DNA of 46,116 nt from assembly GCA_903834285.1 (NCBI GenBank), contig CAILIO010000383.1, forward strand, positions 1 to 46,116, read 5' to 3'. Both the position numbers and the translations under genes were made by a program. The stretch is from an uncultured Sphingomonadales bacterium. GTDB lineage: Bacteria; Pseudomonadota; Alphaproteobacteria; Sphingomonadales; Sphingomonadaceae. The notes under the pieces were generated by a model, which searched no databases, had not been told where the DNA came from, and saw only the letters and a program-made list of their open reading frames with translations. Shown one piece after another: positions 33,386 through 44,068 of this stretch. Position 1 is the first letter of the stretch; every line of letters starts with the position of its first letter.

Positions 33386-34918
33386 ATGAGGATACACAAA
33401 GCGGCAGGCCTTGCCTGGACGTCCGATATAGCAGGGGCCGCAGTGTTTGCCTGGGGGGTGGCCACGGCGCTGGAAGCCCGGCTTGCGGGCGGCACAACCT
33501 CGGGCTTGGCGACCGGCTCCGCGCTGGTAGTGCTTGGCGGCTTGCTCAGGCTTGCCAGCCAGTATAGCGCGCAAGTGCTGGGTTTTGACAAAGGCCGCGC
33601 GCTGGCGCGAGCGCGGCGCGCGGCCGTTTTCCCCAGACTACTCGCCATCGCGGGCCCCGGTGCGCCCGCGCTCGGTGCAACCGCCACGTTCGGGATCGAC
33701 CATATTGCCGCCGAACAGGCCCGCGCCGCGCGGTTTGATCCAGTGCGCCAGTCCGCGACACTGGCCCCTCTCCTCGTGGTCGTCGTGGTCGCGTTCCAGA
33801 GCCGGGTTGCCGCGCTGATCCTCTTCGCGACGCTGATCCCGTTCGTGATCGGCATGATCCTCGCCGGCGGGGCCGCCCGGCAAGCTGCGGACCGGCAGAT
33901 GGCAGCCATTGCTGCGCTCTCCGCACTCTATGTCGACCGGATCCGCCACTTGCCGATCATCCGCCACTTCGGCGCCGAGGAGCGGATCGCCCGGCAGGCT
34001 GGCGGCGCGGCGCAGGACGTCGCGGAGCGCACCATCGCGGTGCTCAGGGCCGCATTCCTCTCAAGCGCAGTGCTGGAATTCTTCGCCGCGCTGAGCGTCG
34101 CGCTGGTCGCGGTCTATTGCGGGTTCAGCCTCCTCGGCCTGCTGCCCTTCCCCGCGCCCGAGCATCTCGATTACCGCGCGGCGTTCTTCGTGCTGGTGAT
34201 GGCGCCGGAATTCTACCTTCCGATGCGCCGCCTTGCTGCGGCCTATCATGAAAAGCAGTTGGGCGAGGCTGCGGAGAAGGCTCTGGCGGAAGTGCCGGAG
34301 CTGGTCGCCCGCCCCTGCGCCTCCGAAGGTGTCGCGCTGCGCGATGTAGTCGTGGTCTGGCCAGGCCACCGCATCGGCCCGATCAGCTTCGAACTTGGCC
34401 GGGTCGGTCTGGTCTGCATCACGGGGCCGACCGGCAGCGGCAAGACCAGCCTGCTCGCTGCAATCGCCGGGCAAGTCGCGCCAAGCGAAGGCACGCTTGA
34501 AACGCTCCCGCCCGGGGCCATTGCATGGGCCGGCCAAGTTCCGCTGCTCCTGCCGACAACGCTCGCGGAAAACCTTCGCCTCGGCCGGCCCGATGCAGAC
34601 TGCGCATCGGTGGCCAAGGCGGTGGGCGCGGTGGGGCTCGATGCGCTGGTCGCTAGCCGGACGGACGGACTCGCCACCGTGATCGACCACCACGGCGCCT
34701 GGCTCTCTGGCGGCGAGCGGCGGCGCGTCGGCCTCGCCCGCGCGCTGATCGCGGATCGCGCGCTGCTGCTGGCGGATGAACCTACCGCCGATCTCGATGC
34801 GCCAAGCGCCGAGCGGATCGTCGCACTGCTGGCCAACGAAGCGAAGCGCCGCGCGGTGATCGTGGCGACGCATGATGAACGGCTGGCTGCCGTTGCCGAC
34901 AGGATCATTGCGCTGTGA
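33386..34918 (+). CDS. cydD: Thiol reductant ABC exporter subunit CydD
   Basis: A 510-residue ABC exporter half: a membrane domain with about six helices (to about residue 300), then a nucleotide-binding domain with Walker A GPTGSGKTS, signature LSGGERRRVGLARAL and Walker B ALLLADEPT. Paired with the next gene and placed next to cydAB, it is CydD, which with CydC exports glutathione and cysteine to the periplasm and is needed to assemble cytochrome bd. Its stop overlaps the cydC start (GTGA). By homology alone it could be another type of ABC exporter; the context settles it. Confidence 0.92.
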   Translation: MRIHKAAGLAWTSDIAGAAVFAWGVATALEARLAGGTTSGLATGSALVVLGGLLRLASQYSAQVLGFDKGRALARARRAAVFPRLLAIAGPGAPALGATATFGIDHIAAEQARAARFDPVRQSATLAPLLVVVVVAFQSRVAALILFATLIPFVIGMILAGGAARQAADRQMAAIAALSALYVDRIRHLPIIRHFGAEERIARQAGGAAQDVAERTIAVLRAAFLSSAVLEFFAALSVALVAVYCGFSLLGLLPFPAPEHLDYRAAFFVLVMAPEFYLPMRRLAAAYHEKQLGEAAEKALAEVPELVARPCASEGVALRDVVVVWPGHRIGPISFELGRVGLVCITGPTGSGKTSLLAAIAGQVAPSEGTLETLPPGAIAWAGQVPLLLPTTLAENLRLGRPDADCASVAKAVGAVGLDALVASRTDGLATVIDHHGAWLSGGERRRVGLARALIADRALLLADEPTADLDAPSAERIVALLANEAKRRAVIVATHDERLAAVADRIIAL

Positions 34919-36507
34919 TCGCGCTGCGCTTCCCCCTTCCCCTGCCGCCGCGCGTGAGGGGCCGGATCACGATTGCCTTCTTCGCGGCGCTGGCCGCCGG
35001 GGTGGGCGGGCTCGCACTGCTGGGGGTCTCGGGATGGTTCCTGACCGGCGCCGCGCTGGCAGGTGCAAGCGGCACGGCGGCCGTCGCGGCCTTCAACTAC
35101 CTGCTGCCAAGCGCGGCGATCCGCGGCCTTGCTGTGGTGCGCACTGCGGCGCGCTATGGCGAGCGGCTGTGGTCGCATGAGGCGGCGCTGCATGCCCTTG
35201 CGGGGCTGCGCAGCACCCTGTTTGCCCGCCTCGCCCACGCCGATGGCCGCAGCGCGCCCGATTTGTCGAGCGGCGATGCGAGCGCGCGGCTGATCGGCGA
35301 TATCGCGGCGCTGGAAGACCTCGTCGTGCGGCGCCCCGGCATACCGGCGGCCGTCGGCACGGCGCTGGTCGGGCTGGTGGCCGTGATGCTGGCAGGATGG
35401 CTGGCAGCCCTGCTGCTGGCCGCCGTGCTGGCGCTGCTGCTTGTGGCGTTGGCACTCCTGCCGCCCCGCCTGAGCGCCGCGCCGGCGGCCGATGCGGCCG
35501 CAGCGGTCTCTCGTCTGCGCCGCATGTTGGTAGACTATGCGGCGGCGCGCAGTGAAATCATCACCTATGGCCTTGCTGACCGCGTGACCATGTTGCTGGC
35601 AGCAGAAGCGGACCAGCTGGACAAGGCGCAGCGCCAGTTGGCACGGATCGAGGCCGCGAGCAGTGGTCTGCTCATTCTGGGCAGCACGTTTGCCGCGGCC
35701 GCGGCGCTGCTGGCCAGCACCGCCGCACCGCCAATCACCGCGCTCGCCGTGCTGGCAGCAACCGCGAGTATCGAGGCCGTTGCCGCGATCGCCCGCTCGA
35801 GCGCGCGTGAGGCGGCTGTTGCCGAGGGCACTGCAAGGCTGCAAGTGCTGCTCACGCTGCCCGCACCGCACGCAGCAACTGCATTGCCGGCCATGGCCCC
35901 GCAGCCGCTCGGTTTTGGCGCGGCGTGCTTCCCGCCAGGAAGCCGCATTGCGCTGACGGGGCCCTCGGGATCGGGCAAGACGCAGGTGATCGAGGCGCTG
36001 GCCGGCCTGCGCGCGCCGTTCCACGCGCTTGCGATGGGCGGTACGCCGCTCGCCGAGCGGCCCGCATCCCTTATCCGCGAACAGGTCGCGCTGGCACCGC
36101 AAGAGCCGATGCTGATCGCCGGGACCATCGCCGACAACTTGCGCCTCGCCCGCCCGGGCATCGATGCCGCCGCGATGGAGCTGGCGCTGCGCACGGCGCA
36201 GCTTTGGCCGCGGATCGAGCGCATGCCGCAGAGGCTCGATACAGTGCTGGGAGAGGATGGCGGGGTGCTTTCAGGCGGAGAGCGCAAGCGGCTCTCGATC
36301 GCGCGGGCACTGCTGGCCGAGCGCCCCTGGCTCCTGCTCGATGAGCCCAGCGAAGGGCTCGACGCCGCTACCGAGGCCGCGCTGGTCGCCGCGCTCGAGG
36401 TCTGGCTCGATGCCCGCGGCATGGGGCTGGTGATTGCCTCCCACCACCCCCCGCCGCTCAGGCTAGCAAGCCAGCACATCGCGGTAGCGGTGGTGCCGCG
36501 AGCCTAG
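34915..36507 (+). CDS. cydC: Thiol reductant ABC exporter subunit CydC
   Basis: A 530-residue partner of CydD with a GTG start overlapping the cydD stop. The N-terminal membrane domain includes GGLALLGVSGWFLTGAALAG, a CydC-typical first segment. The ATPase domain has Walker A GPSGSGKTQ, signature LSGGERKRLSIARALL and Walker B WLLLDEPSEGLD. It forms the heterodimeric thiol exporter of the inner membrane. An alanine-rich composition is common for the clade. Confidence 0.92.
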   Translation: MIALRFPLPLPPRVRGRITIAFFAALAAGVGGLALLGVSGWFLTGAALAGASGTAAVAAFNYLLPSAAIRGLAVVRTAARYGERLWSHEAALHALAGLRSTLFARLAHADGRSAPDLSSGDASARLIGDIAALEDLVVRRPGIPAAVGTALVGLVAVMLAGWLAALLLAAVLALLLVALALLPPRLSAAPAADAAAAVSRLRRMLVDYAAARSEIITYGLADRVTMLLAAEADQLDKAQRQLARIEAASSGLLILGSTFAAAAALLASTAAPPITALAVLAATASIEAVAAIARSSAREAAVAEGTARLQVLLTLPAPHAATALPAMAPQPLGFGAACFPPGSRIALTGPSGSGKTQVIEALAGLRAPFHALAMGGTPLAERPASLIREQVALAPQEPMLIAGTIADNLRLARPGIDAAAMELALRTAQLWPRIERMPQRLDTVLGEDGGVLSGGERKRLSIARALLAERPWLLLDEPSEGLDAATEAALVAALEVWLDARGMGLVIASHHPPPLRLASQHIAVAVVPRA

Positions 36508-37690: not shown

Positions 37691-38536
37691 TTACCCGTTC
37701 GATAGCCTGCCAGCCAGCAGCATCTTGCGGTGCACCGACGGGCTCACCCCGAAGGCGGCGCGGTAGCACTGCGAGAAATAGGCGTGGGAGCGGAACCCGG
37801 TGCGATATCCGATCTGTGAGACCGGCAGATCACCGGTCGCCAGCATACGCGCCGCCTGCTGCAACCTGAAGCGGGTCTGGTAGGTGACGAACCCCGCGCC
37901 GAAGGTCTTCGCGAACAGACGCGAGAAATAGGACGCTGATAATCCGCACAGCGAGGCCGCCTCGGCGAGCGACAGCGCCTTGTCCGGAAACCGTTCCCAA
38001 TGCTGGAGGAGCGGGCGGAAATGCGCGAGGCCGGAGGATGGTGCAGGGTCCTCGCAGCCATCTTCCCCGAAGGCTCCCCGCAGCGCGAGAAGCAAGGCTT
38101 CGAGCAAGACGATGATTTGCGCCTCTGGAAGGTGATCCTCAAGGCTGGCGGCGAGCCAATCGAGCAGCAACGCCGCGCGCTCTGCCGCAAGCGCGCCGGG
38201 CGCGGCTGCGCAAGCAGCGGCCGGCAGCGCCGGGATACGGGGATCGATGGCTAGCGGATCGAACTGCACCAGCGTCCACCGCCGAACACCGGGTGCAAAA
38301 GCGAAATCGTGGATCGCCATGCCCGGCGCATAGAGCACCGATCCCGGCGCAAACGCCCATTCGCCCGCTTCGCTGATGAAGCTGCCGCTGCCTTGCTCCA
38401 TAAACACGAGTTCGGCGAGCCCGTGAAAGTGAAGGAACCGCTCGGGCACGGGCTCGCCCGCAGGCTGTCGGACGCGCTCGATCCGCACCGACCGTCCCGG
38501 CGGCAGGGCAACAGGTTCGGAGAGCGCGGGCAGCAT
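37691..38536 (-). CDS. AraC-family transcriptional regulator
   Basis: The start is set at ATG 38536 (MLPALSEP), giving 281 residues, the normal family length. The 481-residue track ORF runs 200 codons antisense into the next gene. The N-terminal cupin sensor is visible (LHFHGLAELVFMEQGSGSF and APGSVLYAPGMAIHDF). Two helix-turn-helix units follow: LSLAEAASLCGLSASYFSRLF, and LPVSQIGYRTGFRSHAYFSQCYRAAFG. No good ribosome site precedes either candidate start. It is divergent from the dioxygenase/GH13/GH92 operon over 132 bases and likely controls it in response to a sugar. Confidence 0.88.
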   Translation of the reverse strand: MLPALSEPVALPPGRSVRIERVRQPAGEPVPERFLHFHGLAELVFMEQGSGSFISEAGEWAFAPGSVLYAPGMAIHDFAFAPGVRRWTLVQFDPLAIDPRIPALPAAACAAAPGALAAERAALLLDWLAASLEDHLPEAQIIVLLEALLLALRGAFGEDGCEDPAPSSGLAHFRPLLQHWERFPDKALSLAEAASLCGLSASYFSRLFAKTFGAGFVTYQTRFRLQQAARMLATGDLPVSQIGYRTGFRSHAYFSQCYRAAFGVSPSVHRKMLLAGRLSNG

Positions 38537-38668
38537 AACAAGATATTGATAATTTATTGCCGGGATTGTTGCAATCGCCCCCGATGATATCCGCATGTAC
38601 GATAGGTATAGTCGTGCGCAGGGTTCACCCCCGGACCAATCCCGTGCAGACAAGAAAGCGCGCGCCCG

Positions 38669-39466
38669 ATGATCAACCTGCCCTATGCCGTTTCGGACGA
38701 CGCGATTGCCCGCTACAGGCGTGAGGGCTTCGTGCGCCTGCCCGGCCTGCTCGATGCTGCGGACCTCGAAGACTATGGCGCTGAAATCACCCGGCTGACC
38801 CTGGCGCTTAACACCCAACACAAGCCGCTTGAGGAACGCGAGACCTACGACCGCGCGTTCCTGCAGGTGATGAACCTCTGGCGCTGCTCGGAGATTGCCC
38901 GCAGCTTCGTCTTCGACCAGCGGCTCGCGGGCATAGCGGCGGAGCTTCTGGGGGTGAACGGCGTGCGGCTCTATCACGACCAGTCGCTCTACAAGGAACC
39001 TTCGGGCGGGATTACCCCGGCGCATGCCGACCAGTACTACTGGCCGCTCGCGAGCGACCGTGCGATCACCGTATGGATCCCGCTGCAGCCGGTGCCGCTC
39101 GAAATGGGGCCGCTGGAGTTCTACGCCGGCAGCCACCGGACCGCGCTGGGCCGCAACCTGCCGATCTCAGACGAGAGCGAAGCGCGAATCACTGCCGAAA
39201 TGGAAGCGCAAGGGCACCCGATCGACCGCGCGCCTTATGCGCTGGGTGACATAAGCTTTCACTCGGGCTGGACATTCCACCGCGCCGGGCCCAACTTCAG
39301 CGACCGGCCGCGTTCGGTGATGACAATGATCTACATCGATGCCGAAATGACCGTGGCCGAGCCCGCCAACGCGGTGCAGCAGGCTGATCTGGCTCAGTGG
39401 CTGCCGGGGCTGAAGCCAGGCGATCTCGCCGCCTCGCCGATCAATCCGGTGCTGTTTCCGCGATGA
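38669..39466 (+). CDS. Phytanoyl-CoA dioxygenase (PhyH) family protein
   Basis: A 265-residue Fe(II)/2-oxoglutarate-dependent oxygenase. The iron triad is visible as His119 and Asp121 (HADQ) and His204 (FHRAGPN); an arginine in RPRS would bind 2-oxoglutarate. The family hydroxylates diverse small molecules, so the substrate is open. It starts an operon with two exported glycosidases, overlapping the first by ATGA. Such oxygenases recur near sugar operons of sphingomonads and Bacteroidetes, but their role there is not established. Confidence 0.88.
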   Translation: MINLPYAVSDDAIARYRREGFVRLPGLLDAADLEDYGAEITRLTLALNTQHKPLEERETYDRAFLQVMNLWRCSEIARSFVFDQRLAGIAAELLGVNGVRLYHDQSLYKEPSGGITPAHADQYYWPLASDRAITVWIPLQPVPLEMGPLEFYAGSHRTALGRNLPISDESEARITAEMEAQGHPIDRAPYALGDISFHSGWTFHRAGPNFSDRPRSVMTMIYIDAEMTVAEPANAVQQADLAQWLPGLKPGDLAASPINPVLFPR

Positions 39467-41031
39467 AGTGGCCGGTCATCGTCGCCGCTCTTCTGGCGTT
39501 TGCGGCTCCGGCCGAAGCACGCAGCCTGCGGCCCGCATCGACACCGCCGGAGATGGTCTACCACGTGTTCGTGCGCAGCTTCGCTGACAGCAACGGCGAC
39601 CGGCAGGGCGATCTAAACGGCATCCGCCAGCGGCTCGGCTACTTGCAGCGGCTGGGGGTGACGACCTTAATGCTCACCCCGCTCTACCCCTCGCAGTTCT
39701 ACCACAACTATTTTGCCGACGATTTCGAGGGGATCGATCCCGAGTTCGGCACCAGGGCGGATTTCGCCGCGCTGGTGCGCGATGTGCACGTGCGGGGGAT
39801 GAAGATCATCCTCGACGAGGAAATCCAGTACGTTTCCGACCGGCACGCGTGGCGTACCGCTTCGTCCGGGCAGCCCGATGGTCCTTACGGCAAGTTTCTG
39901 CTCTATCGGGACGCGGCGAACCGCGAGCCTTTGCCAACCTTGCTCGGCACCAACGACTTCACCGTATGGCCCGGGCAGAAGCGGCAGATCTTTACAGTCA
40001 ATCTCGCCGAACCCAAAGTGCAGGCCTACTTTGCGCGCTATCTCACCGCCTGGGCCGATCCCGATCACGGCGGTGACCCCTCCGACGGCGTAGATGGTTT
40101 CCGCATCGACCACATGATGGACGATCTCGACAATGCAGGGGTGCTGAAGGACCTGCTCGCGAGCTTTTGGGCGCCGATCATCACGCAGCTGCATGGGGTC
40201 AATCCGAAGCTGCGCTTCATCGCCGAACAGGCCGATTGGGGCGATGGCGCGGCCTTCTTCGCCAGGGGCCGTGTCGACATGGTGTTCGCCTTTCCGCTCT
40301 GGCGCGCGGCGGGGGCGCTCGATGCGGCAGGGTTTGCCAAGGCGATCGTGCAATCGAACGCGGTGATACCGGCGGGGCGCAGCCAGCTGGTTTTTGTCGA
40401 AAACCACGATACCCCACGCTTTGCCCATGGCGCACCGCGCCGGGCGGAAATCCTGCGGCTGGGCGCAGCCATCACGATGCTGACGGGCTGGGTGCCGAGC
40501 CTCTACTACGGGCAGGAAATCGGCATGTCGGGCGCGCAGACTGATGACTATGCCGCGAGGGGAGACCAGCCCGCCAATGCCGACGCGCGCGATATTCCGC
40601 TGCGGCAGGCCTTCCGCTGGGTGCCCGATCCGCTGGCAGCGGGCAACGCCGCTTGGTACCGCGCCTTTCCGGATGCGTACCATACGCCGGACAGCAATGT
40701 GCCGGGCGACGGTGCCTCGGTCGTCGAGCAGGAGAGACATCCAGACTCGCTGCTCAATACATATCGCACGCTGGCGGACCTGCGGGCGCGCTGGCCAGCG
40801 CTAGCGCGAGGCGCGACGCGAGTTTTGTCGCAGCAGGGCAATCTTGTCCTGCTCGAGCGCCATGCCAAGGCTGGCACGGCGCTGGTGTTGTTCAACTTCG
40901 GACGTGAGACTACACGTGCCAGCTTGCCCCTGCCTTCAGGCGCCGTCCGGCGCTTTGGCGAGGCGCGGCTGGAGGGCAGGTTGGTCGCCGCTCCGGCCTA
41001 CTCCGCAACTTTCTGGACCACTGCGCTATGA
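39463..41031 (+). CDS. Exported GH13-family alpha-glucan hydrolase
   Basis: The start is ATG 39463 (MKWPVIVAALLAF), overlapping the upstream stop; the track ORF is 22 codons too long. The 522-residue product has a signal peptide ending near PAEARS, then a GH13 barrel. Catalytic residues are Asp216 (DGFRIDH), Glu255 (FIAEQ) and Asp316 (VENHDTPR). Conserved region I reads LDEEIQYVSDRHAW in place of the textbook DxxxNH, a variant I recall from some alpha-amylase-like proteins. It should cleave or transfer alpha-linked glucose units in the periplasm. The exact linkage is unknown. Confidence 0.9.
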   Translation: MKWPVIVAALLAFAAPAEARSLRPASTPPEMVYHVFVRSFADSNGDRQGDLNGIRQRLGYLQRLGVTTLMLTPLYPSQFYHNYFADDFEGIDPEFGTRADFAALVRDVHVRGMKIILDEEIQYVSDRHAWRTASSGQPDGPYGKFLLYRDAANREPLPTLLGTNDFTVWPGQKRQIFTVNLAEPKVQAYFARYLTAWADPDHGGDPSDGVDGFRIDHMMDDLDNAGVLKDLLASFWAPIITQLHGVNPKLRFIAEQADWGDGAAFFARGRVDMVFAFPLWRAAGALDAAGFAKAIVQSNAVIPAGRSQLVFVENHDTPRFAHGAPRRAEILRLGAAITMLTGWVPSLYYGQEIGMSGAQTDDYAARGDQPANADARDIPLRQAFRWVPDPLAAGNAAWYRAFPDAYHTPDSNVPGDGASVVEQERHPDSLLNTYRTLADLRARWPALARGATRVLSQQGNLVLLERHAKAGTALVLFNFGRETTRASLPLPSGAVRRFGEARLEGRLVAAPAYSATFWTTAL

Positions 41032-43211
41032 TCGACCGCCGCTGCCTGCTCGCGCTGACCGCATCTGCGGGTACCCTGCCTTTTGTCGGCTCGTCAGCGT
41101 GGGCACGGGACGACCGAGCGGGCCTCGTCGATCCCTTTATCGGCACGGATGGCACTGGCCACACTTTCCCCGGCCCAAGCCGCCCCTTTGGCATGGTCCA
41201 GCCGGGGCCCGACAATGCCGGATCGGGCTGGGACTATACCTCGGGCTACCAGTACCGCGCGCCGCGCATCCTTGGTTTCTCGCAGAACCGCGCGAGCGGC
41301 ACCGGCATTCCGGAACTTGGCGACGTATTGCTGCAACCAAGCGTCGAGCGGCGCGAAGACCTTGCCAGTACTTATGTCAAGACCAGCGAAGTGGCGCGGC
41401 CCGGCTACTACGCAGTCTCGCTGGCGGACAACGGCGTGCGAGTGGAGCTGACCTCGACCCTGCGCAGCGCCATACACCGTTACCGCTTTGCGCGTGGCGG
41501 GAGGGTGTGGGTGCTGGTCGATCTCCAACATGGCCTCACTTTCCGCACCGACCGGCAGCCAGTCCAATCGGTCGCCAACGACTTCAGCGCGGACGGCTTC
41601 GAAGGCGAGGCGGTGCGGCAGAACTGGACCACTCGGCACGTCGCGTGGTCGGCCCTCTTCAACCGGCCGATCGCTGCGGTGGAGACACTGCCGCCGCGCG
41701 TTGGGGAAGCCGCGCCGCGCTATCTGCTAGCGTTTGATCTCGGCGAGGACGCCACCTTGCAGGTGCGCATCGGGCTTTCCACCACCGACCGCGCCGGCGC
41801 GCGGCGCAACCGCGATGAGCAGGGCGGGTGGAATTTTGATGCAATCGCGGCCGAAAGCCGCGCCGAATGGAGCGCCTTGCTGGACCGCCTGTGCATCGAC
41901 GCACCAGCAGATCAGCAGCGCATCTTCGCCACCGCGCTCTACCACGCGTTCCTCCACCCTTCGGTGATCAGCGATCTGGATGGCCGTTGGCGCGGGCCGG
42001 ACGGCACGGTGCGGCAAGTGGGCAAGGGCCTGCGCTATTCCACAATGTCGCTGTGGGACAGCTTCCGCGCCGCCAATCCGCTCTACACGCTTCTCGTGCC
42101 CGAGCGCGTCGACGATTTCGTGAACACGCTGCTCGATCACTCCGATGCGGCGGGCAGGCTGCCGAAATGGCCGATCTGGGGCGGCGAGACGGGCACGATG
42201 ATCGGCGAGCCCGCGCTGCCGGTGATCGCCGATGCCTGGGCCAAGGGCTTTCGCGGATTTGACGGCCAGCGCGCGCTGGCGGCCATGGTCGCCACTTCCA
42301 CACGCGATGCCAAGCCGCTCTATCCGGGCGACGATTCTCTCTCAGTCTGGTCGATCTACGACCGGTTCGGCTACTACCCCTTCGATCTCGTCAGCGGCGA
42401 AGCTGTCTCGCGCTCGCTCGAAGCCGGGATCGGCGATACAGCGACCGCGCGCATGGCAGCCATGCTGGGCGAGCCGGCCCAGGCCCGCCACTATGCCGCG
42501 AGGGCGGCGGGATGGCGGCAGCTGATCGACCCGGAAACACGCCTTGCCCGCGGGCGCGACAGCAAGGGCCGCTGGCGCACCCCGTTCGATCCGCTCACGC
42601 CGACCTCCCCGCTTAACAACCCCGGCGACTACACCGAAGCCAATGCCTGGCAATACACCTGGACGCCCGCGCTCCACGATGCGCCCGGCCTGATCGCGGC
42701 GTGGGGCGGCAAGGCGGAGCTAAAGGCCATGCTCGACCGCTTCTTCTTCGGCCTGGCCGCCTCCAAGGGCTCCGAATACCTCGGGCAGGAAGCGATGATC
42801 GGACAATATGCGCACGGCAACGAGCCGAGCCACCATATCGCCTGGCTCTACGCCTTTACCGATAGTCCGGAGACCGGCCACCGCCTCATCGCGCGGATTG
42901 CGCGAGGCTTCTACCGCGATCTGCCAGCCGGGATCATGGGCAACGAGGATGCCGGGCAGATGAGCGCGTGGTATATCTTTGCCACGCTCGGGTTCTATCC
43001 CGTCGATCCCTCGAGCGGTTCCTATGTCGCTGGCGTTCCCCTCGTGAGCCGCGCGACGATCAACGTCCCCGGCCACCGCCCGCTTCAGATCGAGCGCCGC
43101 GGCACGGGCGAGAGGCTGCGGGCCGTCCGGCTGAACGTCGAGCTGCTGCCGACCACCCGCCTGCCGCACGGCAAGCTGGCGGCAGGCGGGAAGCTTGTGT
43201 TCGATCTCTAG
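41028..43211 (+). CDS. Exported GH92-family alpha-mannosidase
   Basis: A 727-residue protein with a signal of twin-arginine look (DRRCLLALTASAG) and an SAWA-type cleavage region. GH92 motifs are clear: VDPFIGTDGTGHTFPG near residue 35, HGNEPSHHIAWLYAF near 596 and MGNEDAGQMSAWYIFATLGFYP near 637, the last holding the general-base aspartate. GH92 enzymes are calcium-dependent exo-alpha-mannosidases. It overlaps the GH13 gene by ATGA, so both sugar enzymes and the dioxygenase are co-expressed. Its stop shares CTAG with the convergent crotonase gene. Confidence 0.92.
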   Translation: MIDRRCLLALTASAGTLPFVGSSAWARDDRAGLVDPFIGTDGTGHTFPGPSRPFGMVQPGPDNAGSGWDYTSGYQYRAPRILGFSQNRASGTGIPELGDVLLQPSVERREDLASTYVKTSEVARPGYYAVSLADNGVRVELTSTLRSAIHRYRFARGGRVWVLVDLQHGLTFRTDRQPVQSVANDFSADGFEGEAVRQNWTTRHVAWSALFNRPIAAVETLPPRVGEAAPRYLLAFDLGEDATLQVRIGLSTTDRAGARRNRDEQGGWNFDAIAAESRAEWSALLDRLCIDAPADQQRIFATALYHAFLHPSVISDLDGRWRGPDGTVRQVGKGLRYSTMSLWDSFRAANPLYTLLVPERVDDFVNTLLDHSDAAGRLPKWPIWGGETGTMIGEPALPVIADAWAKGFRGFDGQRALAAMVATSTRDAKPLYPGDDSLSVWSIYDRFGYYPFDLVSGEAVSRSLEAGIGDTATARMAAMLGEPAQARHYAARAAGWRQLIDPETRLARGRDSKGRWRTPFDPLTPTSPLNNPGDYTEANAWQYTWTPALHDAPGLIAAWGGKAELKAMLDRFFFGLAASKGSEYLGQEAMIGQYAHGNEPSHHIAWLYAFTDSPETGHRLIARIARGFYRDLPAGIMGNEDAGQMSAWYIFATLGFYPVDPSSGSYVAGVPLVSRATINVPGHRPLQIERRGTGERLRAVRLNVELLPTTRLPHGKLAAGGKLVFDL

Positions 43212-44068
43212 TCCTTCCGGCTTGCCCGCGCCTCGCGCTTGATGATCTCGAGGCCCTCAGGATCGACCAACTGGCCGAATTGCGCGAAGTTGTTGGCATG
43301 GCCGAACTGGTGCAGGTTGAACGCGGACTGGATCGCGTTCCACATCCCTTGCGCGTCCATCGACTGGTTGACGCTCATCTTCGCGGTCTTGAGCCCGATG
43401 GCCGGGCGCGACGCGATCTTCTCGGCCATTGCGAGCGTGAAACTGTCGAGCTCCGCGCGCGGGACGACCTCGTTGACCATGCCGAGCGCCTTCGCCTCCG
43501 CCGCACCGATCGGCTCGCCCGTAAACAGCATCTGCTTGGCCTTGCGGTGACCAAGCTCGAAAGCGTGGACGAAAAATTCGTGGCCGTTCATGCCGAAGGC
43601 GACCACCGGATCGGAGAACTCGGTATCGTCGGCGGCGATGATCAGGTCGAACGGCCAGATCAGCATGAGCCCGCCGGCAATCGCCTTGCCCTGCACCTGC
43701 ACGATGATCGGCTTGGGCAGATTGCGCCAGCGCCAGCAGAAGCCGAGATAGACTTCCTGTTCGCGCGACATGTGGCCCTGCGGTCCCGGACTGCGATAGC
43801 CGCCAAAACCGAGGATCGGCGGACGCAGATCGCCGATGCGCGACCGGTCGCTCAGATCATGGCCCGAGGAGAAGTTCTTGCCGTCCGCCGCGAAGATGAC
43901 GACGTTCACCTCGTCATCGTCCATCGCCACATCGAGCGCATCGTTGATTTCGTAGAGCATGCGCAAGCTTTGCGCATTGTGCTTGTCGGGCCGGGCCAGC
44001 GTGATCCGGGCGACGCGCGCGGCGGGCCGGTCGTAGCGAATATCCTCGAAAGCCGACACTTCACGCAT
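43208..44068 (-). CDS. Crotonase-fold protein lacking the usual hydratase glutamates
   Basis: A 286-residue enoyl-CoA hydratase/isomerase-superfamily protein with the CoA oxyanion-hole segments NFSSGHDL and KAIAGGLML. Where hydratases have glutamate in GGGxE, this reads AGGLML; where they have GQPE it reads SDPVVAFG. Both catalytic acids are therefore replaced. A remaining aspartate (FSDP) could act in another chemistry such as isomerisation or decarboxylation. RKAKQMLFTGEPIGAAEA and the C-terminal part are otherwise typical. The ATG has AAAGGAAA upstream. It is divergent from the MDR/SDR pair, suggesting one small acyl-CoA or enone pathway. Confidence 0.85.
   Translation of the reverse strand: MREVSAFEDIRYDRPAARVARITLARPDKHNAQSLRMLYEINDALDVAMDDDEVNVVIFAADGKNFSSGHDLSDRSRIGDLRPPILGFGGYRSPGPQGHMSREQEVYLGFCWRWRNLPKPIIVQVQGKAIAGGLMLIWPFDLIIAADDTEFSDPVVAFGMNGHEFFVHAFELGHRKAKQMLFTGEPIGAAEAKALGMVNEVVPRAELDSFTLAMAEKIASRPAIGLKTAKMSVNQSMDAQGMWNAIQSAFNLHQFGHANNFAQFGQLVDPEGLEIIKREARASRKD

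Follow-up and report, generated by a model that had tools for sequence, protein, structure and literature searches.

The removal of O-methyl groups from sugars has so far been credited only to cytochrome P450, and we know of no route by which bacteria outside the porphyran system achieve it. In porphyran users such as Zobellia and Formosa, a CYP236A-type P450 demethylates 6-O-methyl-galactose (G6Me); the genes of the dehydrogenases FoADH and ZoADH adjoin that of the P450, and an esterase is encoded nearby (PMC10033563). Growth on G6Me requires the ZoADH gene, without which the strain grows poorly; in vitro both enzymes prefer aromatic aldehydes and act neither on G6Me or galactose nor on formaldehyde, whether or not thiols are present (PMC10033563). 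The reaction matters because O-methyl groups can block glycosidases: the methylated terminal mannose of freshwater algal N-glycans resists jack bean alpha-mannosidase, as found with Chlorella, in whose N-glycans 3-O- and 3,6-di-O-methyl-mannose occur (PMC6344472). Here we describe an operon of an uncultured, Novosphingobium-like Sphingomonadales bacterium whose PhyH-family dioxygenase, judging from its gene partners in relatives, probably carries out sugar O-demethylation with 2-oxoglutarate.

The operon lies in a contig of 46,116 nucleotides, referred to below as the window. The PhyH, GH13 and GH92 open reading frames proposed in an earlier note on this DNA were confirmed at the coordinates given in Table 1, all on the forward strand. 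Its description of four-base ATGA overlaps at both junctions and of a divergent AraC gene was likewise borne out by the sequence and by Pfam matches; an alternative start of the AraC gene at 38536 would yield a shorter protein. In a consensus promoter scan, the number of matches was about that expected from shuffled sequence. The gap between AraC and PhyH gave a single weak promoter-like match (38584-38612), not above chance, and no credible promoter was found inside the operon, where the sole match fell within the GH92 coding sequence. Independent promoters, which the note had named as evidence against a single unit, were not detected above chance internally. A four-base overlap likewise joins two consecutive ABC-transporter-like genes upstream (33386-34918 and 34915-36507; CydDC-like by eye); within this genome, ATGA-type coupling is therefore nothing peculiar to the operon. 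On the other side, the last four bases of GH92 are shared with the end of a convergent enoyl-CoA hydratase gene (43208-44068, reverse strand), beyond which lies an apparently unrelated neighbourhood of CoA and dehydrogenase genes. PhyH and GH92 each have one match in the window's own genome.

Table 1. Features of the operon and of related loci (window coordinates unless a locus is named)
Feature	Location	Strand	Basis
AraC-family regulator, divergent	37691..38596	-	HTH_18 and HTH_AraC Pfam matches
AraC/PhyH intergenic region, likely site of the operon promoter	38597..38668	.	position
PhyH-family Fe(II)/2-oxoglutarate dioxygenase, 265 aa, predicted cytosolic; predicted sugar O-demethylase	38669..39466	+	PF05721
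Codons of the predicted iron triad H119-x-D121...H204 and 2-oxoglutarate-binding R215 of PhyH	39023..39313	+	conservation
PhyH-GH13 stop/start overlap, ATGA	39463..39466	+	sequence
Exported GH13 enzyme, GH13x clade, 522 aa	39463..41031	+	PF00128 (2.7e-45)
GH13-GH92 stop/start overlap, ATGA	41028..41031	+	sequence
GH92 alpha-mannosidase-type enzyme, 727 aa, probably exported	41028..43211	+	PF17678, PF07971, TIGR01180
TIM-barrel gene of related loci	L097:10806-11693, L045:7280-8113, L035, L044, L083, L095, L096, L105, L107

To assess conservation, we took similarity to PhyH as the sole criterion and gathered 80 related loci, whose PhyH shares 57-85% identity with that of the window. They belong to the Alpha-, Beta- and Gammaproteobacteria, with a few from other groups, and together with the window make 81. 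GH13 was present in 65 of these loci, GH92 in 54 and both in 45, and 74 held at least one of the two. Since the loci were chosen by PhyH only, the recurrence of the same neighbours in 74 of 81 shows that the operon is not a chance arrangement, an explanation we reject. Separation of the three genes in relatives, the other outcome that the note had regarded as contrary, did not occur in that these 74 loci keep one or both glycosidase families. A related AraC gene accompanies 55 loci, and the neighbourhood counts support a single catabolic unit that is conserved and flanked by its regulator; the PhyH-GH13-GH92 triple is a real functional unit. Only Novosphingobium loci (L031, L032 and L061) showed its exact order, and in the other loci gene order and content vary; many gammaproteobacterial loci carry GH13 beside PhyH without GH92. 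Queries for TonB receptors and MFS transporters gave no match in the 18 kb around the operon, so that the receptor or sugar transporter expected of a TonB-linked polysaccharide utilisation locus was not found there; among the 81 loci, MFS genes occurred in 20 and receptor genes in four.

PhyH matches PF05721 (E 5.6e-27; 95.8 bits against a cut-off of 22) and, as far as hydropathy tells, has no signal peptide, in agreement with the cytosolic location proposed earlier. Residues H119, D121, H204 and R215 are invariant across 44 aligned sequences; from knowledge of the family we take the first three to be the metal triad and R215 to bind 2-oxoglutarate, and the predicted iron site is intact. An AlphaFold2 model (pLDDT 93.4) is closest in fold to SnoK and SnoN, followed by MysH, with EvdO2 and AviO1 lower. 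Sequence and fold neighbours include SnoK, SnoN, EvdO2, AviO1 and kanamycin B dioxygenase, several of which act on sugar moieties. SnoK and SnoN, the closest solved PhyH-family enzymes by both measures, act on the nogalamine sugar in nogalamycin biosynthesis; unlike the enzyme proposed here they are biosynthetic, share about 28% identity with PhyH, and catalyse cyclisation and epimerisation rather than demethylation. We know of no PhyH-family sugar O-demethylase, and a search of the open-licence literature found neither a 2-oxoglutarate-dependent sugar O-demethylase nor a PhyH protein with GH92 in a glycan locus.

Both glycosidases are predicted to be exported, as the note had proposed, although by hydropathy the signal peptide is clear in GH13 and weaker in GH92, where a twin Arg is present. 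The GH92 protein matched both domains of its family (PF17678, 1e-132; PF07971, 5.5e-52) and TIGR01180 above cut-off. Its closest solved relatives, B035DRAFT_03340 (7ZGM) and BT3130 (6F8Z), are both alpha-1,3-mannosidases, and its E537 and D641 align with residues of BT3990 that we take to be the catalytic acid and base. The window enzyme thus resembles 7ZGM and 6F8Z in both domains and in the aligned acid/base pair, whereas its operon has no PNGase or other N-glycan enzyme. These features suggest an alpha-mannosidase-type enzyme that would release mannose or methyl-mannose. The GH13 protein retains the catalytic triad D216, E255 and D316. Its GYD motif, however, reads N-Y-F84 and the region-I His is replaced by Y123, changes shared by every GH13x sequence examined; the GH13c enzymes found at other loci keep the canonical Asp and His. 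In GH13 enzymes, this Asp and His make contact with O4 and O6 of the sugar at the -1 subsite, and their replacement makes an altered or substituted sugar there plausible. The label "alpha-glucosidase-type" is too strong, as two -1 subsite residues on which alpha-glucosidases rely are replaced although the triad is kept; an ordinary alpha-glucosidase is a weakened candidate. GH13x and GH13c are mostly mutually exclusive among the loci (p 8e-6), and GH13c looks cytosolic (one sequence checked, without signal peptide).

The gene partners that link PhyH to demethylation come from its relatives. In 29 loci, a zinc ADH gene lies directly downstream of PhyH as its immediate same-strand neighbour, with in most cases a PF00756 esterase lacking a signal peptide next in line; over all 81 loci, ADH occurs in 33, the esterase in 37 and both in 32. 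In L050 these genes show stop/start overlaps, and the AraC-PhyH-ADH-esterase order of relatives recurs in Bacteroidota, on the Emticicia oligotrophica plasmid pEMTOL04 (L141, NC_018744.1). The plasmid cluster is found near a recombinase gene and TonB receptors, surroundings that suggest mobility. The closest solved relatives of the ADH are ZoADH (8H2B) and FoADH (8H2A), at 372-381 bits with the next best at 182. A canonical glutathione-dependent formaldehyde dehydrogenase was rejected for this ADH, whose score of 206 bits falls short of the 544-bit cut-off and whose relatives have contrary biochemistry (PMC10033563).

An independent search in genomes not selected by PhyH, with close ADHs defined by at least 47% identity, found such an enzyme in only 5 of 399 Pseudomonadota genomes: three with the P450 and two with PhyH, the latter two without an orthologous P450. 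The P450s of the three genomes share 65-74% identity with the L127 query, itself matching 6G5O at 636 bits, and one of the three has a porphyranase-domain gene close to the ADH. Among 346 genomes of one gammaproteobacterial order, ten carried the P450; the ADH occurred in nine, every one of which also had the P450 (Fisher p about 6e-17). The cassette of these genomes again pairs ADH with esterase, in most cases next to an AraC gene. No CYP236A-type P450 occurs in any of the 80 loci related to that of the window. ADHs from the two settings share 30-60% identity (mean 46%), the P450-linked ones forming one clade. As the cassette occurs with either oxygenase, the simplest reading is that PhyH replaces the P450.

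Relatives of the window locus share with the CYP236A-type system the ADH family, a neighbouring esterase, often a divergent AraC gene, an oxygenase gene beside glycoside hydrolases and a predicted intracellular action on the released monosaccharide. In contrast, the PhyH loci employ a 2-oxoglutarate enzyme without ferredoxin or reductase, GH92 and GH13 take the place of the porphyran enzymes, and no galactose genes were seen. The window differs further in that neither it nor its nearest relatives have the ADH or esterase beside PhyH, and no close ADH was found in its own genome (best 32% identity), so that the proposed function is transferred from relatives mostly 59-66% identical. ADH and esterase were gained or lost at least nine times in the tree, the window lying in a branch without them, which makes the pair an exchangeable accessory to a constant PhyH. 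A glutathione-dependent formaldehyde dehydrogenase encoded in the same genome, above its curated cut-off, could serve in their place.

On balance, we consider it somewhat probable that PhyH is a 2-oxoglutarate-dependent O-demethylase of an O-methyl hexose released by GH92 and/or GH13, an assignment by association with its partners in relatives. The operon would then serve to take up and use an O-methylated alpha-linked saccharide. Exported GH92 and GH13x would trim it outside the cytoplasm, and the freed O-methyl hexose, most likely methyl-mannose or methyl-glucose, would be imported; the presence of GH92 suggests the former, and the gammaproteobacterial loci with GH13 but no GH92 suggest the latter as well. 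PhyH would hydroxylate the O-methyl group with Fe(II), 2-oxoglutarate and O2, and the hydroxymethyl ether would yield free hexose and a one-carbon unit, namely formaldehyde or, in loci with ADH and esterase, perhaps formate. AraC may sense the substrate. Against O-demethylation stand, besides the missing ADH and esterase at the window locus and the cyclisation and epimerisation chemistry of the closest characterised PhyH enzymes, the lack of a transporter in the operon and the inactivity of FoADH and ZoADH on formaldehyde, its thiol adducts, G6Me and galactose. A more specific and rather tentative proposal is that the ADH, where present, oxidises the hydroxymethyl ether directly, giving a formate ester that is then cleaved by the esterase to formate and sugar with no release of free formaldehyde, PhyH being the first 2-oxoglutarate O-demethylase of glycan catabolism; such a route would explain the growth defect of the ZoADH knockout. 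If PhyH is indeed an O-demethylase, a known reaction would gain a new enzymatic route, in which a single soluble 2-oxoglutarate enzyme replaces a multi-component P450 system, and the use of methylated sugars by such a pathway would be indicated as widespread in freshwater and soil. It would also offer a handle on the role of FoADH, ZoADH and the neighbouring esterase (PMC10033563).

The proximity of SnoK and SnoN in sequence and fold raises the question of whether PhyH instead acts on a ring or deoxy carbon of the sugar set free, by hydroxylation or epimerisation, and so converts an unusual hexose to a normal one. A sugar-isomerase-like TIM-barrel gene directly 3' of PhyH in nine loci, never found together with ADH or esterase (p 0.003), would suit such chemistry; no NCBIfam profile matched it under the threshold applied, it has no relative of solved structure, and it gives no clue to the sugar. 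We regard this alternative as possible but unlikely, and it leaves unexplained why the cassette is otherwise common only to the methyl-galactose P450 system. The note had envisaged hydroxylation of whatever part is released. Cytosolic action on a released sugar is probable, whereas the note's further options, an aglycone substrate or a tailoring role, are less favoured, as the partners point rather to O-demethylation. Oxidation of an aglycone or non-sugar substituent would accord with the many small-molecule substrates of PhyH enzymes, the preference of FoADH and ZoADH for aromatic aldehydes and the exported esterases of several loci, but the loci contain no recurrent gene for further aglycone breakdown, and we think it improbable.

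That this is an ordinary mixed sugar operon in which PhyH plays an unrelated part is very improbable: unrelated genes can share operons and the exact triple was observed in Novosphingobium only, yet in 74 of 81 loci glycosidase neighbours are kept, across several classes and despite changing order and partners. Least credible of all is cleavage of the C-S bond of sulfoquinovose. SqoD of Marinobacterium aestuarii is likewise an iron/2-oxoglutarate oxygenase of modified-hexose catabolism, acting on C6 of glucose, but it is paired with the reductase SquF and sulfite excretion (PMC12890257). The PhyH loci show no recurrent reductase or sulfite gene, GH92 does not fit such a pathway, and SqoD, set apart here by its description only, was judged an unlikely model.

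A few loci stand out in the wider sample. Three contain a second PhyH-like family (L071:1425-2255, with the same cluster in L046 and L051). PhyH relatives of 42% identity occur in a Gram-positive, on the Priestia megaterium plasmids NZ_CP065214.1 (L142) and NZ_CP064276.1, the former with a divergent AraC gene. Finally, the PhyH of a contig binned as Candidatus Planktophila lacus (L089) is nearly identical to that of a Janthinobacterium-binned contig and falls inside a burkholderial clade, a placement that is probably a binning error.
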